Shown here: positions 8,666 to 63,029 of the stretch, one piece after another | Layout of the letters: every line of letters starts with the position of its first letter | Numbering within the stretch: the stretch's first letter is position 1 | Origin: Apostichopus japonicus | Lineage: Eukaryota > Echinodermata > Holothuroidea > Aspidochirotida > Stichopodidae | Direction of reading: 5' to 3' | DNA length: 64,000 bases | Assembly (NCBI RefSeq): GCF_037975245.1 | Contig: NC_092569.1 | Coordinates: forward strand, 21,747,168-21,811,167 | Made by a program: the position numbers and the translations under genes | The notes under the pieces: model-generated | What the model saw: the letters and a program-made list of their open reading frames with translations, nothing else | Database searches by the model: none | What the model was told of the DNA's origin: nothing

Positions 8666-8922
8666 GCCATTTATTCTTATTTATTTGACATTCAATATAG
8701 TGTGTTGTGAACAAATAAATAAATGAAATGAAATGATGAACCTTACTGGCTTTCATTCATTATAATGAATGATATGCATCGATATATGTTTCTATAGATA
8801 AAGTGCAATCAGGTCGGATATAATGATTTAGTTCTGAAATATGCTAAAACTTGGTGTGATAAATATAATAACTACAGTAAGATACAAAGGAGGCGTGATG
8901 TTTTATATACTCATCATTCAAA
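8666..8922. other. Intergenic, duplicated in 17085-17343
   Basis: Unique-looking sequence that matches 17085-17343 closely. It is part of duplication block 2. No gene is seen. Confidence 0.6.
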
Positions 8923-16839: not shown

Positions 16840-16889
16840 AGCGATGTTTATACTAAGCAAAGAGTCGGATCAAATGATTGGTTGTTCCT

Positions 16890-22869: not shown

Positions 22870-23650
22870 AATTGCATGAATAGATTTCTTTTATTTTCTT
22901 TATCTTATTATAATATGTATACAAGTAAGTGGGCCTGAAACATGGTGAAATTGAACTACCAGAAGAGGGGTGACAGAGTAGGAAACAAGGGGCGATGGAA
23001 GGGGGGGGGGTGAGGTTAGTCATATCCTTCCTGAATGTTAAGCCCTTGAGGTTGAATTGTGCGAAGGCGTTGCATCCACATTATCTCTCTGCTAGGTCAG
23101 GACGGCTACCTGAGGATTCAATCCCCGGTAGGGTAATGCCATTCATGGTATGGGTGGGAAGGTTAAAGTGTTCTCCAACCGTGTCACATTCTTCATGGTG
23201 TTTACTGTGGATCTGTGACCATAGAACCGCTTCTTTAGGCTGGTTTTGCATGGTTTCACCAACATATACTGGATGCCGCAAACTCTACTACAAGAGACCA
23301 GATATATGACATTAGAGGTTTTGCAAGTGATGTGACCATTAGTCTTGTGTGTGAGTTGGGTGCTGTGGCTGGTGACGGAATTGTATTCAACAGTGTGGTG
23401 GCTGCAGACAATGCATCTCTAGGTACGATCACATTTGAAAGTAGCCTACTATTTTGTGTTCACCCTGCTAATTAACTTGTCTGTATTCTGTGCTTGTATA
23501 CTTGTCCATTCTGTAACTATTACTTGTCATTCAGCCTCTGAAGAAGATCCTGATAGGATCGAAACGTTAGGCCCACTTGCCTTAACACATTCTCTTACGT
23601 GGGCTCTCTAGTGTATAAGCAGTTTGCTAACAGTTTTGTTTTATTTTTAT
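22870..23650 (-). mobile_element. Penelope-like element fragment, copy 3
   Basis: Structured like copy 2. The minus-strand GIY-YIG end (VGET, PKEAVLWSQ-type degraded helix, EHFNLPTHT) lies at about 23081-23280. The cysteine-rich lead-in is further right, and an oppositely oriented terminal segment at 23460-23650 bears the best hammerhead-like motif. Small deletions and frame changes break the reading frame. Flanks on both sides also match copy 2, so the pair may descend from one larger repeat. Confidence 0.7.
23534..23572 (+). ncRNA. Candidate minimal hammerhead ribozyme (Penelope copy 3)
   Basis: GCCT, then core CTGAAGA, then GATCC-TGATA-GGATC (perfect 5-bp stem II), then GAAA, then CGTT, then AGGC. 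GCCT and AGGC form a perfect 4-bp stem I. The cleavage triplet would be GTT instead of the GTC of copy 2. Stem III is only the short palindrome ACGT, so a dimer would be required. Confidence 0.6.
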
Positions 23651-24054
23651 TCTAATTATAATATGGTCGATGCCCTGTTGAATGACATGAAAAGAGATAC
23701 AATGGAACAGAATCGAATGTGGGGTTAGTGGACTGCTGCTATCTCCGTAGACAAAGAAAGAACGCACATTTACAGCATTTAATACTATGAATATGTTTCT
23801 ATGTTCATCTGTTCGTACGTACGTTATGTGCCTGGCTTAGCTACAGCGCCGCACTAGCAGCTGTACATTGTAAATACAGCGTGCATTCCCTATATTAGAG
23901 CGTAAACAATGTTTGTAGTTACGCGCCCAAACCAGTTTTGTCGTTCCATATAAAGAAGTCTGCGTTCACGGATGACTAAAACGAACGCGTGTTTAGAGCA
24001 ATTAATAGATTGTCTCTACTAGCTAGGCCTGTAGATGAGTTTGTACGTACGTTA
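23651..24054. repeat. Dispersed repeat paired with 10136-10465
   Basis: Matches the sequence after copy 2, including the CGTTCCATA end at 23942-23950. A further partial copy follows the MITE (24302-24400). No gene is seen. Confidence 0.5.
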
Positions 24055-28935: not shown

Positions 28936-31745
28936 TTATATATGTATCATTGATATAATTATTAGACAAAAACAGAGAAATAAGATATGACACATAATTG
29001 ACAAATATTCTTTTTTATTGAATTACATAACACATCCTTCTTGTTGACCCTTTATTAACTGTTTACCAAATAGTGTTATCTTTACACTAATATTCATATG
29101 TAAATATTTTCTTAGTATTTGAAAATCTTGAACCAGTATGATACTATACAGGGTCCCAAGTCCGTCCACCAATATCTCGCAAATGGTTCTCCTTACGTTT
29201 AAATCGATATCAAACTTAATGTGTGAAAGTTACCTTATCGGTATAAAGTATTAGTTTGCAACTAATACGTATAAGTGCATCCCAAATATACAAAGACAGA
29301 TGTTTAAAATACTCATTTCATTGGTATTTAACTGAAAGCTAATAACAAGTACACGCTTATGCAAAGTTGTCTCTTTTGAGAGTATGTTCCCTGTATTTAT
29401 GTACCGTACTTGAAAGGTAATGAGTGAGATTTAAATAGTTGTAGGAGAGTTTAAAACCTTGTCAATGAATGATGATACACAACAACCCCTTATTAAGGAG
29501 TGTTAGCTCAGTGGTTAACGCCGGTGCCTTTCAATCATAAAGTCCCCAGTTCGAGTCACTCCAGGATTAATGTATGTCGTCCAGTTACATAGTTGTTGAT
29601 AATTGACAATTCATAATCATGGACGTTAAATATGAATCTAAGAGACTGACTTCGGTCAGCTTGCAGCTTTGATAAGCCAATGAGGCTTCTTCGTGAGTTC
29701 CTGCTTGCAGGAGGATCTAAAATACATACATACATACGTGACATTATACAAGCAAACACTCACCAAGCATACTAGAAAATGTATATAGTTGGATATAACT
29801 GGTTATCAGTCTTATTAACGGTACAATTTGCGGTCAATATGAAGTAACGAAAAGAAATTTGTTGCATATATACCTAGTCTAGAAAATAAATACAGAGAAT
29901 CTTTTAAAATATGACACGATATTCACAATATCCTAAAAAAAACACTATACAACTATAGATGCATATCAACTTGCCAAATCCAAATACCTCACCCTGTGGG
30001 AATGTTTTTCTTTTTAAGCAAAACCTAATTATTCACGACCCTTAAAAGTGCAAAACTTCAAGATTTCGGAAATCGTTCACTATGAATTAATGTTTCCTTT
30101 TGTATAATGGAGTGTTTTACATTGTTAAGCCCACCAGGGTTTTAATGCACTTCCTTTCACAGCTTGTAATTCATTTGTATATAGTCTTTGTTAACAAGTA
30201 TAAGTTGTGAAGATACAAAACACAAAACAATGAAGTGACATAAATATGACGATTTTGAAATATAATTTCTGTCATAATTAGACCTTGGTAGTACCACTCT
30301 CTAGTCGTTGACTCACTGGACTGTATGTTTATTTGGGCTAGTTACAATATCACTGTGGAGAATGGCTAGTCCTCATTTTCACCGTTTATTCATTCTCTCT
30401 CTCTTGTAAACTTTCTCTAGCTGTCTGCTAACTGTAAGAACCACGACTGACACTCTACCTTGGCGACTCAGCCATGACCCTTAGAATCGATGTTTAGAGC
30501 GCATGAAATTTGGACTTCAATTGAACAGTTACAAAACAAGTAATTGAATTGCCCCCTGCAAGCTCAGAATAACTGTCAGTAAATATACCACCATCTGGAA
30601 AAATTCTGAGACCAATTGAAACAAAATAGAAGGATAACTTGTCTGTTGGGTTGCTCCCGCTGTTTGCGGAACGTTGAACCATGGAGGTCTGTTTTACCTC
30701 CATGGTTGAACTAAGATATTTGATCAACACCTTAAAGAAAATTATTAAATGAAAGAAATTGCGAAAATTTACTATATATTTAAGAAATGTTCGATTGTAC
30801 ATGGCAATCTTTCTGAGAATTTTGTACACAGGTCTGGCAAGCTATATATATATGTATAAAATGGAACTAAACTATGGTTTGACTTGATACATACAGTTAC
30901 TATGACTCAACTGGTTTAAACCATTATAACCGAGGGATGCATTTACTTTCAACTGCTTGGTAAGTCCTCATCATGACATGACAGTTTACGTTTTTCGATG
31001 AATATAATTAAAGCGCATTGTGCATTATGACAACAGTGTGTGTTGAATATGACAGCATGTTTGTATATTTACATGACAAAATAATGGAAGAACGGAAAAA
31101 AAGGGTGGGGGAGGAAGCGACCATTCAACTGAGGCCGCACCATGACAATCACAAGATTTATTAAGAATTTAGGCAGACGATCTGGGTCACCTTAATTAGA
31201 TACGTAAAAAAAACTACAGACAGTATCAGAAACTTGTTTCTTTAAACATATGGCAATGAATAAAAGCAAATTTGATGCCTTATTCGGGATCATGAAGGAT
31301 AAAACAACCACATGCCTTCACGGACAGATATGAGAACTATTTATACAACTTCATATTGGAATGCAACTTGATCGTAAGGCAATGCATTCTTTTCGAAGGA
31401 GTTTATACTCTAAATTAGGAACTCAACTTGACATGATTATGTCTTTTGAAACTGTTTACACAATTTCATAAGGGATGGCATCTTCATCACAAGCACCCCT
31501 TTCGTATGAACTTATTTTACCGAAGCTATCGCAAAGATGTATTGTCATACCACCCTCTTCGGTCTGCTCACACTGGAGTGCAGAGGGTGGCTTGGGTGCT
31601 TTCCCGTTTTCAAAACATACAAAGCCTAACACTTTCGAGTCTTTCGTGTTGTATTCTTTAAGAATCCATGTTTCTTCGCCAATATTTTCACAGTCTTTGA
31701 TCGAGGTTCCCAACCATAATATAAACACATTTGCATTGTCTTGCT
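27477..31745. repeat. Segmental duplication block 1' (partner about 1361-4030)
   Basis: Collinear with 1361-4030, plus two insertions: about 29138-29940 (which holds a SINE) and about 30030-30738 (which holds a perfect 12-bp-stem hairpin). Its right end runs into the 3' part of TRIM-like copy C. A G run lies at 28528-28543 and TA/CA microsatellites at 28800-28945. No other gene is seen. Confidence 0.8.
29497..29736 (+). mobile_element. tRNA-derived SINE, copy 2
   Basis: Same family as 11621-11841: GGAGTGTTAGCTCAGTGGTT head, B-box-like AGTTCGAGTCACTCC, a body with AGACTGACTTCGGTCAGC, a CCTGC-TTGCAGG hairpin and a tail of ATAC repeats. It lies within the insertion that distinguishes block 1' from block 1. 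Confidence 0.82.
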
Positions 31746-33477
31746 TGCTGAGGAAAGTTTGATGACTACCAAGGAAGACACAATGTAATATTTGAACATC
31801 TGTAATGTGAAGTGTGTTTGGTGGATCTACATCGTAGGACTTGCCAAGCTTCTCATAATATGTGCTATATGTTTGCAATTCGTCATCTTCAGTGTAAAAG
31901 AAAATATCTTTGGAACAGACAAAGACAGAATTTACTGCCGCTTCTGTGGTAAAAAGATAGTTGCGAACTCTTGAAAATTGGGAGTAGCTAGGCTCCCTGT
32001 GATACTTTACGCTCTTTGCTTTGCAATCTTTGTTCCCATGATCATCGACATTCAGAGACGTTATGAACAGCAGACTTCCACTTAATCCAATAAACGTGAT
32101 CAAGTTAACATTTCCAGACACATCGAAATGGCTTTTATACTCCATCGAGGTATAAGTAAATTCAACAACGATTTTTCCTAGCCCAACAAGTAAACATTTA
32201 TTAGACTCTACCGTTGCAACTAACTTAGCACCTACCGGTATTTTATGTATCCATTTATAAGGCTTTGATTGTACAATTTCCCCACTTATCTTCATTACCT
32301 TTGAGATATGTAAAAACTTAGTGTTATCTTCAAATGTGAACAACCAAAAATTACCCTGCTTGTCGCTGGCTACAACATCTCCTTTGGCATAATGAAAACC
32401 TATTTCTATGTCCGGTAGTTCACCAGGAGAGAAAGCAATTTCATGTTGCAACTCCGATTTGCTCCATTTAAATGCTGTACTATCTTCTTCTAAAGCTTCA
32501 AATGCATTGCTAAGTTCCAAGGACATAGCCATTACTTCCCATGGGTTATTTTCACTTATTATTTTACGTGTTATTTCTTGTGTGGTTTGCATTCTCTTAA
32601 TCCAATCTTCAGCTGATTGGACTCGGGACTCGACAGGTTCAATTCTTGCAGTAATCTCTTCTAGCAAGTCTTGTTTTTGTTTATCATAGACCTTTCGGAT
32701 TTCTCTGATCATTTCATTACAATGGTTTGTAATTTCTATTTCTATCTCTTCCTTAGACTTATTAAGTGCTACCACACTCACATTCCCGTCATTTTTGTAG
32801 CCGACTGCTTTCTCCAGTTGAGGAACACTGTTTTCTAATAAACTATTAAGTTCTTGTTTACTGTCATCAAATTGACTTGTGGCTTCTGTACACTCATGTT
32901 GTGGCTTGGAATGTAAAACGATTGTACAATCTCTACAGATCAGTTTGGAACAAGTTTTACAGTAAAAACGTAACTTCTCAGAAGGATGTAGTGTACAGAA
33001 TGGAGACCTAGCATTCTTCCATTCTTGTTGAGACTTGGGATCATTTAATTCTTTCACAGGAATTACTGAATGGGATTGCAACAGTGGAAACAAAGCATGG
33101 TGACCTCTACACTTGGAACAAATAGCAAAATTACAATCAATGCAAAATGCTTCTGCATCGAAACTCTTGCATGAGTCACATACTGAGGCACTTTCCTCTG
33201 TATTTGTCAACCTCTCCAGCAAGTTTACCCTTTCAACCAAATTGATGAGATGAAAGTTTGTCTGCAAACCTTTAACCCCAGTCTCTGGTAAACTGCAGAC
33301 TTGCCTGCACGTTGGGCAAGGTACTTCATCTCCCGGTTGTTTAGCTGCATATTTCTCGATACATTCCTCACAGAAGCTGTGAATGCATGGTAACATCTTT
33401 GGTGATCTGAACTGCTTCATGCATATGCAACAGATTAGAAAATCCTCGCTCAAATCTTTTACCACTTTAGCAGCCAT
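31456..33477 (-). CDS. TRIM-like RING/B-box protein, copy C (intact)
   Basis: One uninterrupted frame of 673 codons starts at ATG 33477-33475 (MAAKVVKDLSEDFL). The RING spacing C-x2-C, C-x-H-x2-C-x2-C, C-x2-C is complete. B-box 1 begins CDSCKSFDAEAFCIDC and B-box 2 CTLHPSEKLRFYCKTC. A coil-prone segment with the conserved KVYDKQKQDLLEEITARIEP run follows. The N-terminal half is close to copies A and B. The C-terminal half (about residues 345-673) is much more diverged in sequence, with retained islands such as the FILWLGTSIKD, WILKEYNTKD and LCD-FG segments. This pattern, a conserved ligase module with a variable tail, is what one expects if the tail binds changing partners, but that is inference. 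The C-terminal remnant at 3743-4030 resembles this copy and not A or B. Confidence 0.9.
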   Translation of the reverse strand: MAAKVVKDLSEDFLICCICMKQFRSPKMLPCIHSFCEECIEKYAAKQPGDEVPCPTCRQVCSLPETGVKGLQTNFHLINLVERVNLLERLTNTEESASVCDSCKSFDAEAFCIDCNFAICSKCRGHHALFPLLQSHSVIPVKELNDPKSQQEWKNARSPFCTLHPSEKLRFYCKTCSKLICRDCTIVLHSKPQHECTEATSQFDDSKQELNSLLENSVPQLEKAVGYKNDGNVSVVALNKSKEEIEIEITNHCNEMIREIRKVYDKQKQDLLEEITARIEPVESRVQSAEDWIKRMQTTQEITRKIISENNPWEVMAMSLELSNAFEALEEDSTAFKWSKSELQHEIAFSPGELPDIEIGFHYAKGDVVASDKQGNFWLFTFEDNTKFLHISKVMKISGEIVQSKPYKWIHKIPVGAKLVATVESNKCLLVGLGKIVVEFTYTSMEYKSHFDVSGNVNLITFIGLSGSLLFITSLNVDDHGNKDCKAKSVKYHREPSYSQFSRVRNYLFTTEAAVNSVFVCSKDIFFYTEDDELQTYSTYYEKLGKSYDVDPPNTLHITDVQILHCVFLGSHQTFLSKQDNANVFILWLGTSIKDCENIGEETWILKEYNTKDSKVLGFVCFENGKAPKPPSALQCEQTEEGGMTIHLCDSFGKISSYERGACDEDAIPYEIV

Positions 33478-33811
33478 GGAGATGATGAGGGATCACAGAA
33501 ATCAATTAGTTGAATCTATACAAAAAAAACATAAGAAATAATCATGTGTAAGTTAGCCTGACGTTTCAATTTTTTTGTTCTTTTTCTCTCCACACCTTTC
33601 TGTCTATGTCCTTCTCCAGTTTTTTCCCTACCCTGTTCCTATAACCCTTCCTTTGTCCCGCCACTATTTATCTCCTACCTTTCCTCTTCCCCTGTTGCTT
33701 ACTTCTCTCCATCCCTTGTCTACTAATCCCCTTACATGTATCTCATTGTGTTCACTGTGCTCATTAACCTGTCTGTATTCTGTGCGTGATTTGTCCCTTC
33801 TGTTACTGTTA

Positions 33812-34846
33812 TGCTGCATTTACACTAGACCACGATTCCCACGATCGCCACGATTTTTCAAAAAGCGTGGAGCTCCACGATATATTAATGTTTTTTTTTC
33901 TTTTTCCACGCTTTCAGACCCTTTCAAACGTTTTGTTACGATTTATAACGCTTTGCTAGGAAACCAGTGCCTTCCGGTCAAGGCCTGCAACGATTTTCAT
34001 TACGTTCCCTCAAGTTATCTTACGATCACCACGATAAGCTCTCGCGTTCTGCCACGTTCTGCTAAGTTCTGTTAAGGTCCCTCAGGTTCATCAAGTTCTG
34101 TTAAGATCTCCTAAGATTTATGTACACGATTTGACTAAAATTACCACGCTTGAATCCCGATTGGGGTATTAAGAGGAGACTGGGGCCACTCTCCCATTCG
34201 TTCCAGAGAAACAATGAGGAAGCATGCTTCCAAGAGATGAAGAAGATATTGAATTGGCAATTCTGGTTTATGCTTATATTGTCGCTAAAAAAAGAAGGCA
34301 GCGGCAAGAAGAAGAGGCAGAACGGAGCAGGGTGGAAAAGAGTGGAAGGCTGAGGAGGCCAAGGAGAAGACCTAGAAGGTGGTGGGTGAGACGGTGGTTA
34401 AGTGCAGAAAGAAGGAACCAGTTGGGGCACCATTCTCAACTTCTTAACAGGGAACTCAGGTGTGAAGATGTTAGCTCCTACGCGAACTATGTAAGGATGC
34501 CTCCAGATAATTTTGATGAGATAGTGAAACTTGAGGAAATCGTGTTTCAAAATCCAGCAAGATCCCCTGCGATAGTGCACCAAGGTCTGTTTCGCTCTGT
34601 TACGCTCAGTTCAGCTGTACTACGATTCCCACGTTCTTTCACGCGCTGTCATGGTTTGGTTTCAGATCGGGACAATCGTGGGAAAATTTTTGACTGTCAA
34701 AAATTTTGTCACGTTCATGACGATCATCACGATTCAACCAAGTTCCCTCAAGACCACCACGATTCTGTCACACGACCTCCCACGCTCCTCACGATTCTCT
34801 CAAATTGTGGGAATCGTGGAGAACGTGGCCTAGTGTAAATGCTGCA
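33812..34846. mobile_element. PIF/Harbinger-type element, nested, TTA duplication
   Basis: Inverted ends TGCWGCATTTACACTAG followed by RCCACG. TTA lies on both sides (33809-33811 and 34847-34849), and the uninterrupted Penelope context is known from copies 3 and 4. Subterminal regions on both sides are packed with CACGAT/CACGTT and GTTCTGTTA motifs. The centre carries the N-terminal part of a Harbinger-like transposase. The element is a deletion derivative. Confidence 0.88.
34224..34590 (+). pseudogene. Harbinger-like transposase, N-terminal fragment
   Basis: The ATG at 34224 begins a frame with an acidic start, a long basic stretch (RRPRRRPRRWWVRRWLS) and then LLNRELRCEDVSSYANYVRMPPDNFDEIV. 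The pattern WWVRRWL...REL..ED...YRNFVRM....FDEIL is typical of the N-terminus of HARBI1-like transposases. The frame runs on to 34838, but after about residue 110 it is made of subterminal repeat sequence. The DDE nuclease domain is deleted. It is not expected to be active. Confidence 0.75.
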
Positions 34847-34867
34847 TTACTTGTCTGTTACTGTTAC

Positions 34868-34906
34868 ATCTCTGAAGAAGATCCTGCTAGGATTGAAATG
34901 CCAGGC
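34868..34906 (+). ncRNA. Degenerate hammerhead-like motif (Penelope copy 5)
   Basis: Core CTGAAGA, stem II GATCC-TGCTA-GGATT (one G-U pair) and GAAA are kept. The following TGCC and the stem I side have changed, so this copy is probably inactive. Confidence 0.45.
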
Positions 34907-34990
34907 AAACTTACACATTCTATTACACAGGCTTTCTAGTGGATAAGCAATTTGCTAACAGTTTTATTTTATTTTGAATATTTAGAAATA

Positions 34991-37900
34991 ATAATGACAG
35001 ATAATTAATGCAGTGGTGGTGGCTATCCATACCTGAGATGCTGATAATACAGTACATGGACTTTTGAAATCACAAAACAGGAACTAATTATGATCAATCC
35101 TCATTGCTGTGCTTGTATCATACAGTTTAAGCTTGCAACATGAAGTAATGATTACATTGTCATAACTGTATAGTGTAGTATTTGATTGCTGGAAACTGCC
35201 TTTTGATTCATTTAAAACATTAACCATACCTAGAATATACTGACCTTTTTATGAATATACAGTGGTATTCAAAAAATAGCAACACAAAATTCAGGACTTC
35301 ACAAAATTTGTAGTCATTAAAGTGTCTACAGAATCAGAAATGCCACAGTAGCTTGAATTGATCTGATTAATGAAAACTTTTGGCTAAGATCATGTGTATT
35401 GGAGTTGGGAATTGGAGTTGAGAGCGGATCAGTCGTTCGGTAGTTTGGTTTTCGTGCCCATGTTCTTCCCTGGGCGACTTTTTAAAAGAAAGTACTTTGT
35501 GCAGTTGAAGGGACATACATTATGTGATATGATTTTATTTAATTGACCTATATTGACCTTTGCTCTCAACCAAAGACAAAATTAGAGTAATGTCATTTAC
35601 AGGGTTTTGATGCTTTCATCTATGCTGACCTCAGTTGACCCTTGAATTACACACACAAAAAGAAAGAAAGCAATACTATAAAGGTTATATATGCTAAACC
35701 AACTTTGATATTACACAACTGCATTTAAAAAGTGTCAGACATCAATTGACCTTTAAACTCATGCAGCTACTGTGGCATTTATAGGTTTCTTGTACACACT
35801 AGCTTGATGCTACTGTATCCTCAACGTTTGAAGTTCAACCAACCTTTTCTTGTTTTTTTTTTATGAATAAATATTTTAAGAATTCAACCTGTATTGACCT
35901 AAACTAAACATTTATAATACTTCATTCCACTTAACAAACTGCAAAGTGGAACTACAGTAAATACTAAATGCAAAGGTCTACTAAACATTGTAGTTGATAT
36001 TAACATGATGGCAAGGTTTTCAAACTGCAATGCACTCTACGGACCTCAGATTACGAAATGTTCACCTCCATGAAAACCTTGAAGTGGATCTTAATACTAA
36101 ATGCAAAGGTCAACTTAACATTGTAGTTGATGTTAACATGTTTGCAAGGTTTTCAACCTGCAATGCATTCTACGGACCTCAGATTAATACCAAATGTTCA
36201 CCTCCATGAAAACCTTGCAGTTCCATATTGTGTTCAGTGATAGAAATGCTCACACTATACAGAGTTCAATCTGGCTGTGCTATTGGCATTTTCATGTTTA
36301 CTGGGTATAAGAAAATTTACATGTCAATATTTAGAGATATCGGTTTTCATACATAGATGGGCCTAAACATCTACCTTCTTTACAGGACAAGGTTTTAAGA
36401 CTTTCACCTCTGTTGACCTTCAATGAACTTTGACATTTGTTAAAGGCCAGAGGGTTGTTTTGATGTAAAATTTATATGTGAAGTTCACCTTTTCATTTGT
36501 TGTTCTTAGGTATGCATCAATTATGAACAGTGTTTAAACTAAGACCAACTTGAATGCAATGATCTTAAAGGGACTTAAAACTTTGAGGCATAGTGATAGT
36601 TTCAACATTTCTTATGACTTTGTTTTTCAAACAGAACTATACAGCTTTACTCTCTATACACAATGTTTGCAGATTTCTGCAAACATTTTCTGGATCACTG
36701 TGTACATGCAGTCCATCCTACCTTTAAGTTTAAGTAATCTTGTTATCAAGCTGTTCACCTCTTCTGATCTCAAATGAACTTTGATTGCCACAACATGCAA
36801 AAGACTTCTTCTAAAGGCAGCAAATTTATGCAAGGTAGGGATCTCATCCAATCAATTACTTTCTGTTTACATGATCAATAGAATTAGACCTAGAGCTGTT
36901 ATACTCAAATGATCTCTCACATCTACAAACACAATGGGGTCTTGTACTCCTTAAAGTGGTTCTACAGACCACATTATGAAGTTCAATCAGCTTTACCTCT
37001 TTGGTTTCAGACTTTTACCTCTTGATCTCAAATGACCTTTGACCTCTACAAAATATGTTACAATTCATAACCTACTAAGGTCATCAACATATGATATATT
37101 GAATTTCGTCAAAACTTTACTTCTGGATTAAATTGTTTATAAGGTTGCCCGATTTTCAGCTGTTTACCTCACCAGACCTTATTTTACAACAAAAAAAACA
37201 CAACAGCAACAGTTCTTGTACTCACCAAGTTGGATCTACAGTACCAACTCTAATCAAACAAATATGAAGTTTGGTAAAGCTCCACTTTGTTTGCAAGAGT
37301 TGTCACCTACTGTATGTGGATCACAACGTATCTGCAACTACATAGATTCCCAAATTGTCTTCTGCAAGGAATGAAAGTAATGATGCTTTTAATGTCAAAT
37401 TGTTTGAGTCACTTAATACACAATGCATTATGATATGCCCTTAACATGGGATTTAGCGATGGGAAACCTCTACAATATACCTTAGTGTATAAGTATTACA
37501 GTAACTTATCATACGATACCAGGTGTAATTTGAAACATACTCCTTATAAATATTAATCTCAATTATTGTAACACCAAAATAAAATCTTTTCTTCAGATAA
37601 ATAACATTCTCTCTCTGTTGTGAAAACAAAAAATTGGTATAAAAATTATATCTGAACTTGGCCTACATGATTACAAAAATACTTCCAAAATTCTTTTAGG
37701 CATATGTTAAATATGATGTTCCGTATTCGGTTTGCTTCTTTAATTTATACTTCTTTGCATCTACAGTGCCTTCAAAAGGCTACATACACATATTGCATAA
37801 ATTAATGAAAGAAACCGAAAAAATGCCAATTAACACTCATGATCATTTAGCACTCACCAACTGCAGTTCTTGTATGAAATTGCTCCTGTAGGAGATTTTG

Positions 37901-38479
37901 TTAAATTGCAGAACCCTTTGAGCCTTTCTCAGTGCTATGCAAAGAAAGTCCTTGCTTGGCCTGCATGTGGAAATAACAAAGTTACAAGTAAATACATACA
38001 AATGCATTACATGCTGTGTACAGTAGACCTTTAAAGAAAAGAAAAAAATAATATTGATTGCAAAATACTGTCACAATTAACAGGAAATAAATTACATGCA
38101 GTATTTCTGGCATGTAGGATACTGCTCTGTGCACACAAGACAAAAAATGTTGAATCAAGTGAAAAGATGCAGCCTAGCATTTTGTGCAAACTTGTTCACT
38201 ATTGTTTCTTTAGCCTCTTCCCTAGGTAATTGAAAAAAGAAATCTAGCCCCCCTCTGTGATGACTGTTTGTTGCAAATAACTTGTTGTTTATAATGCATT
38301 TATGCCTATACAGCTTTGCCCTATAACTGGCACCAACATGGAGTGTGAAACCATGGAGCCAATAGCTCCTCCTTGTGTTATATATCCGAAGATCCTGCTA
38401 TTAGTGATCAAGTAAGCAACACAGCATGCATGTTTTCCACTACATATAGGCCTAGCTATATTGTAATATCCTGTTTGTT
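34991..38479. other. Long gene-free stretch
   Basis: No gene is recognised. A mariner-like single end (TACAGTGGTATTCAAAAAAT) occurs near 35263 without a visible partner, and TACAGTGCCTTCAAAAGG occurs near 37765, also unpaired. A 133-bp tandem duplication lies at 35960-36225. Phrases like TTCACCTC-TTGACCT recur through 35560-37200, which suggests an old diverged repeat. Confidence 0.5.
35960..36225. repeat. 133-bp tandem duplication
   Basis: Two adjacent copies begin AATACTAAATGCAAAGGTC (35960 and 36093) and share GTAGTTGAT-TTAACATG and TTCACCTCCATGAAAACCTT with a few substitutions. Confidence 0.85.
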
Positions 38480-38837
38480 AGTCAGTGGGAGGGGCTGAAA
38501 TCCCCTTGATTATTTTCTGGGTGGGGATGGGAGAGCTATATAAAGTCCCACAGAATTAGTATAATTGTGCCCCTGCAGCTTGGCATACATACATTTTTAC
38601 AAATTTACGGCTATTTTTTTTACGATTTGAACAGCTTTGTATTAATGACTACGTTTGTTGTTATAATACCAATGGTTTGGACGTTTTTAATATATATTTG
38701 AACCATAATTTTTAGAGAATCTTAAGCAATAGTCTCAGTGCAATACAGGAATAACTCATCCTAACAGGCCTACACACAGTGCCTACCGTAGCAAGCAGTG
38801 CTCAATAGTATTACAGTGAATTAGTGTGTACATCACA

Positions 38838-40229
38838 ATGGAAGCAGATCACACACGCTACGGGATTACCACTCAAATCAATTCAGAGTGTCAGACAGAG
38901 CCGTCATTAATCGACCCATGCTCAACAAACTGCTGCTACCCCAATGGTGAACTAGCCAAGCATGTCGCCTGTGATTTCTGTGGTGTAGTATACCATCTCT
39001 TATGTGTTGGTTTGGAAAAACAGCCTGTTAAAGGAGCGAAATCAAGATGGTTTTGTCAGGGATGCCTTAAAACTCCAGGTCTGCTTCAATCAACGCAGCA
39101 GCAACTCAAAGAGGCATTAAGAACTATTATATCTCTGCAAGCTGAACTGGCGAAACTTTCAAGCCCAAGGCCAAGAAACACAGAGACTGGTAATGTACAA
39201 TCAGATAACCAAAATAACATAGACACTCCCGATCAAGTCCGCCATAACACCTACGCCGAATGCGTCTCATCTAAACCTACACCACCACCCCTAGCCGTAC
39301 GACCAGTAATGATAATCGGGGACTCTATTTTAAAACACGTATATGAGGATGATTTTACTGATGAGATTGTGAAGGTAAATTGCCTGCCGGGAGCCACCGT
39401 CAAGGACGTGAGAAACGCTCTTCTGGCTCAAAGGGAAGATTTACATACATTTAGCCATATTATAATTCATGTTGGAACAAACGATATTAACACACATAAC
39501 CCAAATGTCAACGACATTTCCGCTGATTTCGAGGAGCTCATCACATCTATCCAGCTACTGAACGGGCATAGTCCAAGCATCTATATTTCGGGCCCCTGTC
39601 CGCGGAGTGATGATCATGCGCCACAAATTATAGATTTGAACTCTCATCTGAAGGAACTCACCAATAAGCTGGATTGTAAGTTTTTAGACAATATGGCGTC
39701 GTTCACATACGCAGATGGTGAAATCGACTTATCTTTATATCATGGCGATGGTGTACATCTCAACAGAAAAGGCACCGTTAAACTGATCAACAAACTAACG
39801 ATCATAGGCCCCATCTGCATTCGAAAGAAGAGCTCAAAGATGGAGAATGCCCGGCATATGGGAGTTTCAAATCCCTCCCGCAACTTCTATAGTCAAAACC
39901 GCTCGAATGGGACTATCCACAACAGCATGTCCAGATATGAACATAGGCAGCAACGGATGAGGGGTTTCTCAAACAACGATCACCAACGTGAGTACCACCG
40001 TAGACCAAATCGCCATCCACGAACATCCAACTCATCTCGTCAAGATTGGCAGCGGGAATGCCACCGCAAAGAAAACCGCCAACCAGTTGCTGACCACTTC
40101 AATCTCCGCGGATGTTTCAACTGTGGTGAACGCAACCATGTAGAGGCAAACTGCCGTCTCGAACGGAGGATAGAATGCCATCACTGTCATCGACTCGGTC
40201 ACAAGGCTAGCCACTGCTGGAACCGATAG
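38838..40229 (+). CDS. LINE ORF1: PHD finger, SGNH esterase, CCHC knuckles
   Basis: 463 codons from ATG 38838 to TAG 40227-40229. In order: a PHD-type zinc finger near residues 25-80 (CCYPNGE...CDFCGVVYHLLCVG...WFCQGC); a short helical stretch (QQLKEALRTIISLQAELAKL); and an SGNH/GDSL-type esterase near 155-330 with IIGDSIL (nucleophile Ser block), HVGTNDINTH and GDGVHLNRKGT (Asp/His block). A basic, Arg/His-rich linker leads to two C-terminal zinc knuckles (CFNCGERNHVEANC, CHHCHRLGHKASHC). In CR1-like elements ORF1 binds RNA and the esterase may act on lipids or membranes; the true substrate is unknown. All catalytic motifs look intact. The next ORF is in the same frame. Confidence 0.9.
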   Translation: MEADHTRYGITTQINSECQTEPSLIDPCSTNCCYPNGELAKHVACDFCGVVYHLLCVGLEKQPVKGAKSRWFCQGCLKTPGLLQSTQQQLKEALRTIISLQAELAKLSSPRPRNTETGNVQSDNQNNIDTPDQVRHNTYAECVSSKPTPPPLAVRPVMIIGDSILKHVYEDDFTDEIVKVNCLPGATVKDVRNALLAQREDLHTFSHIIIHVGTNDINTHNPNVNDISADFEELITSIQLLNGHSPSIYISGPCPRSDDHAPQIIDLNSHLKELTNKLDCKFLDNMASFTYADGEIDLSLYHGDGVHLNRKGTVKLINKLTIIGPICIRKKSSKMENARHMGVSNPSRNFYSQNRSNGTIHNSMSRYEHRQQRMRGFSNNDHQREYHRRPNRHPRTSNSSRQDWQRECHRKENRQPVADHFNLRGCFNCGERNHVEANCRLERRIECHHCHRLGHKASHCWNR

Positions 40230-40230
40230 G

Positions 40231-40338
40231 ATGCTGGCCAGAAGGAGCGTGCCGTCAGTATATCACCCACACCTAAACATTTTAATGTATTGGGCAAATG
40301 TGACCATTTTATTTTGCCGTATGAGGACCCACTCATGA
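40231..40338 (+). CDS. Short bridging ORF between ORF1 and ORF2
   Basis: An ATG at 40231, two bases after the ORF1 TAG (TAGGATG), opens 35 codons ending in TGA at 40336-40338. That TGA overlaps the first in-frame ORF2 ATG (40335-40337) as ATGA. The peptide has no recognisable domain. The arrangement would suit termination-reinitiation from ORF1 to ORF2. It may also be chance. Confidence 0.35.
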   Translation: MLARRSVPSVYHPHLNILMYWANVTILFCRMRTHS

Positions 40339-43250
40339 GTGATGTAAGTCAAGATCTCCCAACTAATTCAATACAACCCCAGAGTAAAGAAGGTAAATAT
40401 GTAAATATAACTAAGGGTATCCAATTCGGATTTATAAACATCCAACACCTTCATCCTAAATTAGATCAAATCCCCACACTTATAAACAGAAATGGAAGGA
40501 ATGTTGATATATTTGGATGCTGCGACACATTTTTAAACGATACTTATCAAAATCTGGAAATCACGGTTCCTCTATATAATACTGTCCGTAGAGATAGATT
40601 AAATAAAGCTGGTGGTGGTATTGCTATTTATATCAATGAAAACATTCCATTTAATAGGAGAAATGAGTTAGAATGTGATTATATTGAAGCCATATGGATT
40701 GAGCTTGTCTTACCATTTACCAAAAATATTTTAGTATGTGCTGTTTACCGTCCACCAAATTCCAGGGTTATATGGTATGGTCATTGTCATGAAATGATTA
40801 GCAAGGCATATAGCTCATGCATGGAGATAATAATGATCGGTGATTTTAATATTGATTATCTACACGCTAATATACCTTCGTGTTGGAATGAGATAATTAG
40901 TCATTTTAACTTTAAACAATTAGTAAATATGCCAACTAGGGTGACGGAGCACACCGCCTCCATAATTGATCATATCTATGCAACTAATGAAAATCATATT
41001 TGTGATATAGATGTTCCAAATATTCGATTGAGTGATCATTTTCCAGTATATTTCAATTGGAAAAACAATCTTATGACAAGGCAGACTATTCCAAATTCTC
41101 ATAAATCTGTTGTATACAGATCAATTGATAATATAAATACATCCTTGTTCTTTAATGATCTTCGTAGCTTTGATAGGACAAGAGGTGAATTGAGCTCTCC
41201 TGATGAAGCCCTTTCCAACTGGGAGAAAAGTTTGAAAAGAATACTAGACAAACATGCACCTAAGAAGCAAAAACGTATAAAACGAGAATCACAACCCTCG
41301 TGGATCAATGCAACCATTTTGAATGCGATGAAAAGCCGCGACTCTGCAAAACGAAATGAACCTGACTTATATCGATTCTGGCGCAACAAGGTAACATGTC
41401 TTATACGATCTGCAAAGCAAAATTATTTCAAAAAGGAAATTTCAAAGAATGTTGGTAACACAAAGGAGATCTGGAAGATTTTAAAAAATGTTCAATCAAT
41501 GAACCATGACACCAACAACGAAGGCCCCAGTATACTTAGAGTTGACGATAAGAACATTACTGGAAATGCTAATATAGTAGAAATGTTTAATTCGTACTTC
41601 ACTTCAGTAGCAAGAAGCTACACTGACACAACTCATTCAAACTTTGATAGTTCGTCTATTGAAAGACATATCTGTCCTAAAATTCCTCCAGATGAAACAT
41701 TCGAAATTCCATGTATATCTGAAAATTTTGTATTTAAATATTTAACTACTCTTGATGCCTCCAAAGCAACAGGAGTTGACGAACTGAGTGCTAAAATTTT
41801 AAAAATGAGCGGCCCCCATATATATGCAAGTATTACTCGTATTATAAACATAAGTATTAGAACAAATACATTTCCATCTAGATGGAAAGTCGCAAAGGTA
41901 ATACCCATTTTCAAGAGTAATTCACGACAAGATTTATCGAATTATCGACCAATTTCTATTCTCCCTGTTTTGTCCAAAATTTTGGAAAAACATGTTCATA
42001 TTGCTCTTACTAGTTTCTTAAAGCAATTTGATTTATTAGAAATTGCGCAATCTGGCTTCAGATCGAAGCACTCATGCGAAACTGCTCTATTACATGTCAT
42101 GGAATTATGGATGGAAGCAATTGATAAAGGACAACTGACTGGGGCTGTTCTATTGGACCTCAGGAAAGCGTTTGATTTAGTAAATCATGATATTCTGATT
42201 AAAAAGTTGAAATTATACCAGTTTTCAAGTGCTACTATTGAATGGTTTAAGTCGTACTTAATGAACAGAAGTCAGTATGTCGTCATGAAAGGGACTGCGT
42301 CCTCATGTATGAATATTAGTAATGGCGTTCCACAAGGGTCAATCTTAGGACCACTCTTATTTTTAATCTACATTAATGATTTTAGCCTATGTTTAACTCA
42401 CTGCAAAGCCGACATGTATGCAGATGATACTACTTTCCATATTTCATGCTCCAATGTTGAATCTCTTCAAAGCAAGTTGAATTTTGATGCTAAAAATGTT
42501 TCCAATTGGTGCAAGAATAATAAAATGGCAATCAATACTAGTAAAACCAAATCAATGTTAATATGTTCCAGACAACGCTATGATAATCTACGAGGACAAA
42601 GAAATATTTCTGTCAAGATGAATGATATCGTATTAGAGAATTCTGATACGGAAAAACTTTTAGGAGTCAGAATTGATGCTCACCTGACATGGCAAGCTCA
42701 GATTGATTACATATGTAGTACTATTAGTACAAGATTAGCTCTGCTACGAAGGATTAAACAGTATTTAGACACTCCCACGTGCATACTTTATTATAATGGA
42801 TACATTCATCCAATACTTGACTACTGCTGTCTAGTTTGGGGAACTACCACTGCCCAAAATACCGATAGAATTATTAAATTACAGAAAAGTGCTGCACGCA
42901 TTATTTTAAATGCTACATATGAAGATTGTTCAAGTGATTTATTTGCCAGGCTGGGATGGAAGACTTTTGACAGACACGTTATGTATAGAAGATTAACCAT
43001 GGTTTTCAAGTCAATTAATGATCAAGGACCGAAGTACATGAACGACATGTTTAAACTAGTTACGAATATTCATAATCATAGTTTAAGATCCTCTACTGCA
43101 CGTAACCTGCACATTACAGGCGGACACACTAATTTTTATAACAACCGTTTTTCATGCATTGCCGCAAAAGACTGGAACAAACTAGATCAAAGAGTAAAAT
43201 CAGCAAGAAATCTTAACCATTTTAAACGCCTTGTATCTGATATTGTTTAG
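40335..43250 (+). CDS. LINE ORF2: APE endonuclease plus reverse transcriptase
   Basis: 971 codons from the first in-frame ATG (40335) to TAG 43248-43250. The frame is open upstream right back to the ORF1 stop. The N-terminal part is an apurinic-type endonuclease: GFINIQHL, an Asp where a catalytic Glu is usual (GCCDTFL), CAVYRPPN, MIGDFNIDYL, SIIDHIYA and SDHFPVYF. The reverse transcriptase follows: VAKVIPIFKS..NYRPISIL, QSGFRSKHSCETALL, LLDLRKAFDLVNHDIL, NGVPQGSILGPLLFLIYINDF, MYADDTTFHIS (YADD near residue 695) and KLLGVRIDAHLTW. The C-terminal segment is typical of CR1/L2-group elements. The protein should nick target DNA and prime cDNA synthesis there. No stop or frameshift is present, so recent activity is possible. 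Confidence 0.93.
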   Translation: MSDVSQDLPTNSIQPQSKEGKYVNITKGIQFGFINIQHLHPKLDQIPTLINRNGRNVDIFGCCDTFLNDTYQNLEITVPLYNTVRRDRLNKAGGGIAIYINENIPFNRRNELECDYIEAIWIELVLPFTKNILVCAVYRPPNSRVIWYGHCHEMISKAYSSCMEIIMIGDFNIDYLHANIPSCWNEIISHFNFKQLVNMPTRVTEHTASIIDHIYATNENHICDIDVPNIRLSDHFPVYFNWKNNLMTRQTIPNSHKSVVYRSIDNINTSLFFNDLRSFDRTRGELSSPDEALSNWEKSLKRILDKHAPKKQKRIKRESQPSWINATILNAMKSRDSAKRNEPDLYRFWRNKVTCLIRSAKQNYFKKEISKNVGNTKEIWKILKNVQSMNHDTNNEGPSILRVDDKNITGNANIVEMFNSYFTSVARSYTDTTHSNFDSSSIERHICPKIPPDETFEIPCISENFVFKYLTTLDASKATGVDELSAKILKMSGPHIYASITRIINISIRTNTFPSRWKVAKVIPIFKSNSRQDLSNYRPISILPVLSKILEKHVHIALTSFLKQFDLLEIAQSGFRSKHSCETALLHVMELWMEAIDKGQLTGAVLLDLRKAFDLVNHDILIKKLKLYQFSSATIEWFKSYLMNRSQYVVMKGTASSCMNISNGVPQGSILGPLLFLIYINDFSLCLTHCKADMYADDTTFHISCSNVESLQSKLNFDAKNVSNWCKNNKMAINTSKTKSMLICSRQRYDNLRGQRNISVKMNDIVLENSDTEKLLGVRIDAHLTWQAQIDYICSTISTRLALLRRIKQYLDTPTCILYYNGYIHPILDYCCLVWGTTTAQNTDRIIKLQKSAARIILNATYEDCSSDLFARLGWKTFDRHVMYRRLTMVFKSINDQGPKYMNDMFKLVTNIHNHSLRSSTARNLHITGGHTNFYNNRFSCIAAKDWNKLDQRVKSARNLNHFKRLVSDIV

Positions 43251-43532
43251 GCCAACTTCTCTTTTATTTGTACCAAATTTCTTAAGTTTCTTTACTCTGT
43301 ACACGTTTCTTAAATACTTTAAAAAAAACTATTTTATTAAGCATTTTTTAATGTATTTACGACTTCTTAAATCTTTATACTTTTTATATTATTATTTGTC
43401 TTTTTTAATAACTATTTTTTATTATTTGTCTTTTTAAAAACTTTTTTTTTTTTTTATACTATTTTATTAAGCATTATTGTATTTATGACTTCTTAAATTT
43501 TCCTACTTTTTATATTATTATATGTCTTATCA

Positions 43533-43576
43533 GAGGGCCTCGTGGAAGATTAGCTATTGCTAAACGAGCTACCCTC
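43533..43576 (+). promoter_or_regulatory. 3'-terminal stem-loop of the LINE
   Basis: GAGGG (43533) pairs with CCCTC (43572). CTCGT pairs with ACGAG, and TTAGC-TATT-GCTAA forms the tip. Bulges are CTA on the 3' side and GGAAGA on the 5' side. It lies just before the AATAAA-rich end, where CR1/L2-type reverse transcriptases recognise their template. Function is inferred. Confidence 0.65.
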
Positions 43577-43825
43577 TTAAAATAAAGTTGAAATAAAATA
43601 AAAAATACAGCACGGTCCACTACACTGATTGTATGCTACCCTCCTTATTAACTAAGTACAGTACTTTAATATTTCCACTGTTGTTGATCCTGATTAAAAA
43701 TACCAGCCAGTGAGGATAAATAACACTCTACTGTACACAATAGGCATCTTTTGTGTCATGCTTCAATGCACTTTAAAAAGTTTATCTGGAATTTGAAAAA
43801 GGATTCATACTGCTCATACTGTTGT

Positions 43826-45058
43826 TTAAAAGTAAGTGGGCATGACATTTCGATCCTAGCAGGATCTTCTTCAGAGGCTGAATGACTAGTAACAGTAACC
43901 AAGGGACAAATACAGGCACAGAATGCAGACAGGTTAATGAGCAGGGGAAACACAAAAGAGATATGTAAGATGATTAGTAGACAAGAGATGGAGAGAAGAA
44001 AGAAAGAAACCAACAGGGGAAGAGGAGAGGTAGGAGATAAACTGTAGAGGGACAAAGAGAGGATTAAAGGCAGAGGGTAGGAAATCAAATGCAGAAGGAC
44101 AAAGACAGAAAAGTGTGGAGAAAAAAAGGTAGAAGAGAGCTACGAGACGTGGGGTGATATATGGGGAAACAAGGGGCGATGGAAGGGGGGGGGGGGAAGC
44201 AGAAGAAGGTTAGTCATGTCCTTCCTGAATGTTGAGACCTTGAGGTTGAATAACTTGCAAAGGCGTTGCATCCACAGTCTCTCTCTGCTGATTCGTACTA
44301 GGTCAGGACGGCTACCTAAGGATTCAATCAGGGACATGTCATTAATGGTATGGTTGGGACGGTTAAAGTGTTCTCCAACCGGGGTCTTAGTCTTCACGGT
44401 GTTGACTGGGATATATGACCATAGAACCGCTTCTCGAGGGTGGTTTTGGCTTCACCAACATACTGGATGCCGCAAACTCTATAAGAGATCAGATAGATGA
44501 CATAAGAGGTTGTACAAGTGATGTTACCCTAATTAGTCTTGCATGTGAGTTGGGTGCTGTGGCTGGTGATGTAATTGGATTCAACAAAGTGGTGGCTGCA
44601 GACGATACATCTCGAAGTACGATCATATTTGAATGTTGTGAAGAGTTAGAAGTTAGAGGTGAAACAGCAGCATGCACAAGAAGACCTGTCCCATAGGTTG
44701 GGTGGGTGTCTGTAGGCGATGGTGGGGTTTGCTAACACTTTTGGTTTGATTTTCAGCTGCTCTGTTACTGTATCCCTTCTGGTGATCATCCCTATCTACT
44801 TTATATTTGGACTTGTTCTTGTATTTGTATTTTAGTGTTTCAGTTTTTCATTTTCTTTTTGCCATTTACTCATCCCGCTGTTTTCACCATGTCTCACCAT
44901 TTTCTTTTGTCTCAGAAGCTCAAAAAATTGATCATGCAGAAATCCCAGCGCTATTCTTTCCATCTTTACAACTACTTACTGTACTTGTACAGTACACATT
45001 CTCTTACACAGGCTGTTTAGTGGATAAGCAGTCTGCCAACAGTTTTGTTTTATTTTGA
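43826..45058 (-). mobile_element. Penelope-like element fragment, copy 4
   Basis: On the minus strand this copy keeps the frame through CGIQYVGE-KTTLEKRFYGH, which is the YIG strand of the GIY-YIG domain. PVGEHFNRPNHT and a degraded RERLWMQRL end follow, then a GA-rich 3' segment and a hammerhead-like motif at 43840-43878. To the right, 44690-45058 is non-coding and ends in a segment (GCCAACAGTTTTGTTTTATTTT) shared in plus orientation with copies 2, 3 and 5. No reverse transcriptase is present. Confidence 0.72.
43840..43878 (-). ncRNA. Candidate hammerhead-like motif (Penelope copy 4)
   Basis: On the minus strand: GCCT, CTGAAGA, GATCC-TGCTA-GGATC (perfect stem II), GAAA, TGTC, ATGC. The core is intact, but stem I has one mismatch and the stem III palindrome is lost. 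Confidence 0.5.
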
Positions 45059-47640
45059 TGCTTATACTGTCAGTAGAGGTGATCAGTGCAATGAAGCATG
45101 ACATAAAAAGTACCCAACTAGGTGCATCATGAATACTGTATTTATGTTTAAACATTCACTTTGTCACAGCATCACCTTACAAAAGTGGTCAAATTAAATC
45201 ATGATTTAGCCATGAAAACTAAGCTCCAATTAAACTGTGCTGGAGTGGGATTTCCCTCAGTGCACGTGGTTTAAAGAAAGTGGAGTCAAAGACTTGATTT
45301 TGCAAGACCTGCTTTTGCAAGAGTAGATTCAGATCATCATTAGGGCCTATACTCAGTAACTTTTTCTATGTTAGGTAATTCATCTACAAGGTAGAATATT
45401 TTTTGTATAAAAAAAAAAACACCCCAAAAGAAAACATTGAAATATAGGCCTAGGCTACCCCACTAGTACAGTAGTACAGTACTGTAGTATAACATAGGCT
45501 GTTATATCTGGACTTTCCCTTCCATGATCCATCATCCATAATAAGGAATCATAGAAATAAAACTTAGAATAGATATCAGACCGTAATTCGTTTTAGAGCA
45601 TGTTGGTAATTTTTTATTTTATCAAACCTGCAAAGGTGTAGAACTTACCAGTACTACTACGAGGCTACTCCTGTTCTCGGTTCAGCCTAGGCAATGCTGT
45701 ACCCAAATTTTCAGTTCGTTAGGCAGTAGAATTAAGGTGACCAAAGTACTAGTCTACATGGAATCACAGTTATTTTAACTGTGGTGGAATACAGGTATTT
45801 CCTCTTCCTGAAAGTGAAAGTTAATCACCTGAATGCCGTGCCGCGCCCGCAGTGACATCACAATGTCTGTGAGTGAAATTCATGTAGTAAAGTATTCAAT
45901 GCAGGACTGCGATATGAACATTAGGCGCCGCCCAAAATCGATGGGAAAATACGCCACTTTTTGGAATACGAATTTGTAGGAAGGTGGCGTTATCAACATT
46001 CATCAAACTTTCCCTGTAACAACTTTTCTGACCTTCGACCCGTCAATTTGCCTGTATCTACGCAAGTTGCACAGTGGACTCTATCGTTTTATCTGTAATA
46101 TTATCACTCACTAAAGCAGTGGTCCCTATTGTTTTGATGTGGAGGCTCAACACTAGCTCCTTCAGCCTCAAGCTATCGTTAGCGTTGCTTCCGGATACAC
46201 GCCATCCAACCACTGTAAGAATAAATCGTATCTTGAAGTTCTCAACCATTAGTTTATTTATTCCTTTTTTTCAACATGTTAGTGTGCAAATCATGTAGGC
46301 ATGCGTTGGTTATTACATCGCATGCCAATAACATACAATCATTTGCCGTATTAGAACCCTTCCAAATTAGTTTTAATTATAGGGAAAGTCGTTACAATAA
46401 TAATGATCAGAATAATATCAGTTTAACCATTGTAAAACACATAGAAAATTATTTTTCTTTCAGTATATTGACATATTTCATTTGCTTCCATGCATGTATC
46501 GATCGCGTGTGCAGGGGGCCGCTTGGACTTAATAATGATTTCACCTCATTTTGTCTATTTCCGTGTTTCCCGATTTGCACATTAGATATTGCAGTGCTAG
46601 TATATGCATTGTTTACTTGAGGGTGGGGGTGGGGTGGCGTTGATGGAGTGATGTGTATACGCAAATAAGATAATACAATAAGAGTTATAAAGGGTACTAA
46701 ATATCAGGCTGCATCAGTCCAACAGTCCAATCGAATTTCTGCAAAGTGCCCTTCGACGTTGGTGCCCCCCCCCCAGATTAAAAGTGCTTCCGTCGCCCTT
46801 GGCAGAGCCGTATATGTACGGCTCTGATAATCAGTACAAAACGCTGCCCCACATTTTTTTTTTTTACAAGGTGATGTGCGCTGTTGGCTCAAGAGGTGAC
46901 ATGTTTTCATGGCTGCATTTCAAATTTTGATTAGTGCATATACTAGGACTACTTAACCTCTGCGTAATTCTTTACCAAAGGTACTACTCGCAGCCCTGAG
47001 TGTATTAATATATACTTCCTTTTCCCCGCGGATTTCATTGACCAGACTTGAGTATGCCGATACTTTTTTTTTCCAAATAATAATATACCACAATATACCC
47101 CAATATATATCATAAAATCAGCAAAATAAACTAAAATACGCGATATTGGTCCAAAAACAAAACACAGCATTGGACAAGAAAATTTTAATTAGGCCACCTT
47201 TCGGCCAAAAAATTAGCCTATTTTCTTTTAAAAAATCGGACATGACCCTTTTTACAAGAACACTGTTTGTGCTTTTAGTCGAAATAGATACATTTGGTAG
47301 CCCTGATTCAATTTATCTACGTAGTAATAAATTCATGTTGGATATAAATGAATCTTTCATATCATTTACATGTATAGGAGTTCACAAGTTTCGCGAAATG
47401 GAAGATATATACCGTATGTGACAAGAATCAATCTTTAACCAAGTCTTTATGTGTGGCCCGGAATCACGATATCAAAAACGAGATAAATTTCTAACTATCA
47501 TAATGTGACGTCCTTACGGTGGAACCAAAAAGACATTTACCATGATTTTTTTACCATTATTTTTACCAAGGGCCCATGTTCAGATTTAACGAGAATTGGA
47601 AGCAAATGTGCCCTAAAGACAAGGATTTCATTATATAAAG
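45059..47640. other. No gene seen
   Basis: Mostly unassigned. Short items are a CAGAGCCGTA-TATG-TACGGCTCTG hairpin (46803-46826), C runs and T runs near 46770 and 46850, and frequent TACTGTAC/TACAGTA words. A 63-codon minus-strand frame near 46058-46249 has no domain I can name. Confidence 0.5.
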
Positions 47641-61779: not shown

Positions 61780-62777
61780 GTATATATAAACTGTAGAGAC
61801 CTGTAATACCACATTCCAAATATGTATATTGCAGAAAAGTCCTGATCATGCAAGTTGCCCATACATCTCAAACTGACTTACTGCATTTTTGTTTGTATTC
61901 TGAGACAATTAGAATTCCCCATGTTATGCACAGTTACTGTAGCATAGATACATTTCTCAAAAGCAGAATGGTGCACACTTTTAAGGCTTGTACATGGGTC
62001 ATTCCATGTCAAATCAACAGATTTTGGATAAGTTTGTAGTTCAATTTCTCCAAAAATCATCACCTTCTTGCATGATTAGAGCACCAAGATAGGACCTTAC
62101 AAAGTCACTTGGCCAGCACGTTACAAACTCTCAAACGGTCATTCATTGGACAGTTTTGAAGCAGTGTGACTTATGCTTTCTTCATGGTGTTATAATCATG
62201 CAAGGAGGGTGGTAAAAATGTTTGAGATGGTCTAGCAATAGCCATCTGTGGTTGACATGGAATGACCGATGAGTCGTGCTGAGTTGAACATTGTAATCCC
62301 CTTGAAGTAATGAGAAAGGTCACAAATGCAGGATGGTAGCAGTTAATACATTGTGTATGGTACTCTGCAATATATAAGTCTGGTATTAGTTATATATGTT
62401 ACAATCACCCTGGCAGAAATCATAATCATTGGATCATAACAACCTGTAGCAAAAGTACCTGGAATCAAGAGTACTTATCTACATACTGTATGTTATGAAA
62501 GGACACTAGCCTGATATTTGGTTGATGTCCATATTAGTAATTAATTCAATGTGTTCAAACCTGCAATGCCCTGTCTGCCATTTAATTATGTTCATGTGCA
62601 TAGTGTTTTTGCATAGGAGGATGGTGTGGGGGAGGGGACATGTGGGGTGGGGGGACATGTGGGGGAATATGTGGGGGCGACATGTGGGGTGAGGGAGAGA
62701 GGCAAGAGGAGTGCTCTTGAGTACATTGCTAAACACAACCAGTTGCTTTCAGCTGTCAGGTACTTTGTTCATTGCAG
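61780..62777. other. Intron 4
   Basis: Non-coding. A GGGGACATGTGG tandem stretch lies at about 62630-62695. Two nearby GGTCATTCCATGTCAA/TTGACATGGAATGACC segments (near 61998 and 62253) are inverted copies of each other. Confidence 0.6.
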
Positions 62778-63012
62778 CCTGGCAGTGACAGCGGCACCAC
62801 AGCCTGTGTGGCCATTGTCAAAGGAAATGAAGTCATAGTGGCCAACATTGGTGATTCACGGTGTGTACTATCCAGGGACGGTGAGGCTGTGGACCTATCG
62901 GTGGATCATAAACCCGAAGATGAGGAAGAACTGCAGAGAATAGAGGAAGCTGGAGGGAAAGTAACTCAAGATGGAAGGGTCAACGGAGGCCTCAATCTCT
63001 CTAGAGCCTTTG
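62778..63012 (+). CDS. PPM1G: PPM1G-like phosphatase, exon 5
   Basis: The acceptor TTTGTTCATTGCAG precedes it and the donor CCTTTG/GTAAGT follows. It enters in phase 0 and ends in phase 1. It encodes [20 protein letters not shown], then [30 protein letters not shown] and [17 protein letters not shown] and DHKP are core PP2C motifs, and LSRA-GD is split by the next intron. The remaining catalytic exons, including the last metal-binding Asp, lie beyond the window. Confidence 0.93.
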
Positions 63013-63029
63013 GTAAGTTATCAGTACTT

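Follow-up and report, generated by a model that had tools for sequence, protein, structure and literature searches.

A bridging minicistron and a shared reading frame at the ORF1-ORF2 junction of a CR1/L2-like LINE from Apostichopus japonicus

In a long interspersed nuclear element (LINE) from Apostichopus japonicus, the two open reading frames (ORFs) lie in one frame, which raises the question of how ORF2 is translated. The element is located in a window of 64,000 nucleotides, the whole stretch of DNA analyzed here (NCBI RefSeq assembly GCF_037975245.1, contig NC_092569.1, positions 21,747,168 to 21,811,167 of the forward strand); all coordinates are positions within the window. By frame reading, ORF1 (463 amino acids) occupies 38838-40229 on the + strand with its TAG stop at 40227-40229, and ORF2 (971 amino acids) occupies 40335-43250 on the + strand with its TAG stop at 43248-43250. 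From 38838 to 43250 the common frame has only two stops, at 40227 and 43248, and otherwise runs through about 1,470 open codons. A first-pass annotation had reported the lone TAG in a frame shared up to 43248, the ORF2 ATG at 40335, and a short ORF that bridges the two and ends as ATGA, all of which proved exact to the base.

The spacer between the ORF1 stop and the ORF2 start (40230-40334, + strand) is 105 nt or 35 codons long, and is open both in the ORF1/ORF2 frame and in the +1 frame. It contains four ATGs, none of them in the ORF2 frame, so that the first ATG in the shared frame past the ORF1 TAG is the one at 40335. The ATG at 40231, one base past the ORF1 TAG (TAGGATG), opens a minicistron of 35 codons in the +1 frame (40231-40338, + strand). 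The ATGs at 40285 and 40321 fall in that frame too, and all three share an end at the TGA (40336-40338) that overlaps the ORF2 ATG (40335-40337) in an ATGA at 40335-40338 (+ strand); the ATG at 40298 is followed immediately by a stop (ATG-TGA). A ribosome reinitiating anywhere in the +1 frame would therefore be led to the ORF2 start. Overlapping or adjacent stop and start codons characterize termination-reinitiation of the calicivirus/influenza B type, and such pairs are found in the ATGA at 40335 and in the TAGGATG at 40227. The ORF2 ATG is in a weak context (C at -3, A at +4) while the ORF1 ATG is in a strong one (A at -3, G at +4); the ATG at 40231 has A at -3 and C at +4. GC content is 0.60 over 40215-40259, and 0.24-0.40 in 45-nt steps from 40260 onward.

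The first-pass annotation proposed two routes to ORF2, readthrough of the TAG and reinitiation through the bridging ORF. Both are open in the sequence; reinitiation has gained some support, while readthrough has gained little beyond the open frame. We favor reinitiation at the ATGA, either after the minicistron or straight at the ORF2 AUG, as the way ORF2 is made in this bicistronic CR1/L2-like element, with belief and doubt about evenly balanced. Ribosomes completing ORF1 would terminate at the UAG, and a minority of 40S subunits would remain on the RNA and then reinitiate. Since each intercistronic AUG that opens more than one codon is read in the +1 frame up to the UGA of the AUGA, reinitiating ribosomes would reach the stop-start site and restart on ORF2, after the minicistron or, less often, directly at the ORF2 AUG. 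That reinitiation occurs, and which AUG it would use, we infer from the layout; the shared frame would be incidental or the relic of an older single frame. A stricter version, in which the minicistron AUG acts like an upstream ORF that retains initiation factors after the end of ORF1 and hands over to ORF2 at the AUGA, and in which the intercistronic AUGs opening more than one codon have been kept in one frame to funnel ribosomes there, is decidedly improbable.

The TAG-G-ATG ... ATGA layout favors reinitiation, as do the convergence of all three upstream ATG frames longer than one codon on the ORF2 ATG and the rarity of the exact minicistron in simulated spacers, and the weak ORF2 AUG was counted on the same side against the strong ORF1 AUG. 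The AUG at 40335 sits 34 codons before the endonuclease match, so no N-terminal extension of ORF2 is needed, and ORF1 has a natural end 3 residues past the last cysteine of its zinc knuckles. Precedents exist among LINEs. The literature cited here by PMC number is represented by excerpts; in these, SART1, an R1 clade LINE from silkworm, has an ORF2 start that touches a stop codon, and its ORF2 translation, like that of L1, is coupled to ORF1 (PMC5972666, PMC2881922). In caliciviruses and influenza B, stop-start reinitiation tolerates changes to the start site (PMC5972666), but this tolerance accompanies a tethering motif that is not found at the LINE junction.

The chance of such a layout was estimated from 200,000 simulated spacers of 105 nt with the dinucleotide make-up of the element. 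Frame 0 is open in 10.3% of them, or 4.0% if it must also be free of ATG; in a 105-nt stretch, the probability of an open frame is about 10% for any one specified frame and 0.7-0.8% for two specified frames at once. The exact minicistron is rarer: just 0.32% of simulated spacers hold an out-of-frame ORF whose ATG begins within the first 11 nt and which ends precisely as ATGA, and 0.017% combine it with an open, ATG-free frame 0, with an extra factor of one third for ORF2 landing in the frame of ORF1. Of 88 out-of-frame ATGs inside ORF1 and ORF2 whose frame runs into a stop, only one opens at least 35 codons. Because the pattern was chosen post hoc, these figures mark the junction as worth testing and are not a significance test.

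Several points weigh against reinitiation. All inferences about the junction come from a single genomic copy, in which the layout may still be an accident. Reinitiation does not account for the open shared frame, which it leaves to chance or history. In SART1 it is the stop codon of ORF1 that overlaps the start of ORF2, and a structure further downstream is reported to be required (PMC5972666), while here a 35-codon minicistron lies between the ORFs and no unusual structure is predicted. Among windows scored for local, pseudoknot-free pairing, no unusual fold was found around the junction. Compared with shuffled sequences, the 111 nt downstream of the TAG show no gain in stability (z -0.21) and the 100 nt leading up to it almost none (z -0.74); seven stretches that begin at 40230 or 40236 give z between -0.34 and +1.11, against a baseline of 72 windows of 100 nt across the element with a mean z of 0.12 (standard deviation 1.11). 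The window over the ORF2 start (40278-40377) has a z of -1.29, the eighth lowest of the 72 and not outstanding, and the remaining junction stretches range from -0.98 to +1.57. A UGGGA motif is also absent near the junction (the nearest TGGGA are at 39908, upstream, and 41220, with one TGGG at 40291), and a calicivirus-type, 18S-binding TURBS (motif 1, UGGGA core) was rejected on this basis. An Rfam search over 38400-43800 gave no match at E up to 0.5.

Codon use also gives the minicistron no help. With a leave-one-out codon score, for which 76 coding windows of the element average 0.14 (standard deviation 0.071), the spacer scores 0.098 in frame 0, -0.121 in frame +1 and -0.007 in frame +2. 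The minicistron thus falls below all 76 coding windows, with no sign of selection on its peptide, and a selected 35-amino acid protein was rejected on this score together with the lack of a Pfam match. A relay through the minicistron would need no selected peptide, but an unselected one yields no support for it either. An AlphaFold2 model of the stretch from the TAG to the endonuclease, made without an alignment, had a mean pLDDT of 28.9 and was discarded.

The frame-0 score bears on programmed readthrough of the lone UAG, which would produce a minor ORF1-ORF2 fusion as for gag-pol in gammaretroviruses; we regard this as unlikely. Readthrough explains the shared frame, which chance would give in about 10% of random spacers times one third, and the spacer scores best in frame 0, at a value within the coding range (28% of the 76 coding windows are at or below it). 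GC content also stays ORF1-like for about 30 nt beyond the TAG. However, of 2,630 open stretches of 35 codons taken from outside the element, 32% reach 0.098 (overlapping windows from both strands, some host genes included), as do 5% of off-frame windows in frame +1 and 38% in frame +2 (n=76), and the test is weak because the true frame scores highest in just 58 of the 76 windows. The spacer may or may not be coding in frame 0. In the ordinary local folding past the TAG no stimulator was found, and the UAG-GAU context differs from the strong leaky context of the tobamovirus type. Further, the existing ATG start keeps the endonuclease whole, and readthrough leaves the minicistron to chance. A published parallel is non-LTR (long terminal repeat) group 3 of Paramecium, which has ORF1 and ORF2 in one frame and for which readthrough of the ORF1 stop was proposed from consensus sequences (PMC5405496); this is a distinct ciliate clade, and no minicistron is described in the excerpt. 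Groups 1 and 2 were instead assigned +1 frameshifting or reinitiation in the same source. Because a same-frame readthrough proposal (PMC5405496) and stop-start reinitiation in SART1 (PMC5972666) are already in print, "unusual", the term applied to these routes in the first-pass annotation, was an overstatement.

A different origin for the shared frame, similarly unlikely, is that the family has a single ORF, with the TAG a nonsense mutation private to this copy and the minicistron accidental. The otherwise open run of about 1,470 codons is then simply explained, and the spacer is weakly coding-like in frame 0. LINE ORF1s often end just past the last CCHC residue, and a private stop 3 residues after it would need luck; by our own arithmetic, just a few percent of random nonsense mutations would land in the linker between knuckles and endonuclease, and the copy has no further stop or frame break. 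Single-ORF subgroups are nevertheless included in both CR1 and L2 (PMC4120745). It is also conceivable, but highly unlikely, that these are two ordinary cistrons coupled in another way, by internal entry or by frame-independent reinitiation as in L1, and that the shared frame as well as the minicistron arose by chance. The lack of any outstanding structure or motif at the junction agrees with this, and there are precedents in L1, which crosses a 63-nt spacer to ORF2 (PMC5972666), and in TART, which has a 37-nt spacer and a coupling mechanism described as unknown (PMC5009743). Against it stands the joint pattern found in so few random spacers, judged post hoc. Reinitiation at the ATGA therefore remains the reading we favor.

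By its predicted domains, the element is an APE-type LINE (non-LTR retrotransposon), with an AP-like endonuclease followed by a reverse transcriptase in ORF2. The endonuclease (40437-41039, + strand) matches Pfam PF03372 (E 5.2e-06) and has no match in the PDB, while the reverse transcriptase (41934-42668, + strand) matches PF00078 (E 1.2e-31) and, in the PDB, R2 reverse transcriptase. LINE endonucleases usually have an ETW-type glutamate. At 40518-40535 this residue seems by eye, unaligned, to be an aspartate (CCDTFL, codon 40524-40526), which may be typical of the family or a lesion in this copy alone. In ORF1, a PHD-like finger (residues 32-76; 38931-39065, + strand) scores just below the gathering score of PF00628 (23.0 bits against 24, E 8.3e-05). 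It is followed by an SGNH/GDSL esterase (39303-39788, + strand; PF13472, E 3.5e-10) in which the blocks GDS, GTND and DGVH are present, and whose best PDB relative is the esterase of the zebrafish ZfL2-1 ORF1 protein, 4c1b (phmmer, E 4.8e-10; also aligned). At the C-terminal end are CCHC zinc knuckles (residues 425-463; 40110-40226, + strand) that resemble the HIV-1 nucleocapsid 1a1t (phmmer, E 1.2e-4). Pfam zf-CCHC detects only the first knuckle, below its cut-off (residues 424-440, E 0.0062), and the second was identified by eye. The copy is apparently intact and looks young, since ORF1 and ORF2 are both open.

The tentative placement as a bicistronic, CR1/L2-like element follows from the ORF1 domains and familiar reverse transcriptase motifs. 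ORF1 has the SGNH esterase related to ZfL2-1 that defines type IV, but departs from the esterase subtype of a survey of 448 Jockey-superfamily elements (the esterase by itself or with a zinc finger or leucine zipper), carrying a PHD-like finger and CCHC knuckles instead (PMC4120745). Further ORF1 types in that survey are PHD alone, PHD with RRM or transposase-22, and PHD with RRM and CCHC. The trio of PHD, esterase and CCHC has no row in its Table 1 among those up to CR1 subgroup 8, nor does it occur in section 7, so ORF1 combines domains that the excerpt lists apart. In ZfL2-1 a coiled coil precedes the esterase (PMC3905857), whereas here a PHD-like finger precedes it and the CCHC knuckles follow. 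Human L1 is likewise bicistronic with unconventional translation of ORF2, but has a different ORF1 type in addition to its 63-nt spacer (PMC5972666).

Few LINEs have a resolved mechanism for producing ORF2 protein from a second cistron, and the reviews, as excerpted, name SART1 and L1 (PMC5972666, PMC2881922). Among the matches listed from the open-license PMC literature, seen mostly as list entries, no junction of this type was recognized in an animal CR1/L2 element, and the excerpts on chicken CR1, gastropod LINEs and Hebe held nothing bearing on it. If the minicistron and the shared frame were built into the whole family, a single short segment would offer a natural way to test reinitiation against readthrough. 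The claim is a modest one: the element is of an already known kind, and its junction merits a copy-by-copy check. Paramecium uses another genetic code.

No second copy of the LINE was found in the window by blastn or tblastn, and scans of viral and prokaryote contig collections, which would not normally contain an animal LINE, gave no confirmed loci of relatives. No long direct repeat of the LTR kind was seen at the two ends of the element within 38000-44000. A 9-mer at 38436-38444 (+ strand) is identical to one at 43616-43624 (+ strand); as 5' and 3' target-site duplications these are weak candidates at chance level, about 0.4 such matches being expected in the compared stretch by our own arithmetic. 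Insertion into a repeat that also occurs elsewhere in the window would have fixed the exact ends; it was rejected, as the 5' flank (37000-38844) matches nothing else there. The 3' untranslated region holds T-rich direct repeats at 43328-43528, imperfect and about 55 and 30 nt long. Just 3' of the LINE is a dispersed repeat (43823-44636 and 44992-45065), pieces of which, about 79-89% identical and in both orientations, are found at 194-770, 9430-10152, 22953-23656 and 33580-34977, and with which similar open frames at 9740, 22974 and 44081 fit.

Elsewhere in the window, an open frame of 206 amino acids at 34218-34838 (+ strand) has no Pfam match, and its start bears some resemblance to the N-terminal end of a Harbinger-type nuclease. 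Minisatellites are located at 7231-8669 (43-bp unit, 33 copies) and 8922-9295 (39-bp unit, 9.6 copies), the latter being open in one + frame and two - frames. Three long intronless RING/B-box (TRIM-like) frames of one family lie on the - strand at 4971-7080, 14758-16869 and 31456-33492, assigned by Pfam for two and by eye for the third; the first is split over two frames (4971-6794 and 6721-7080). Intronless frames of this kind near the LINE would fit an invertebrate or lancelet host. An exon-like segment at 62733-63104 (+ strand) corresponds to part of a PP2C phosphatase (PF00481, E 1.2e-30).

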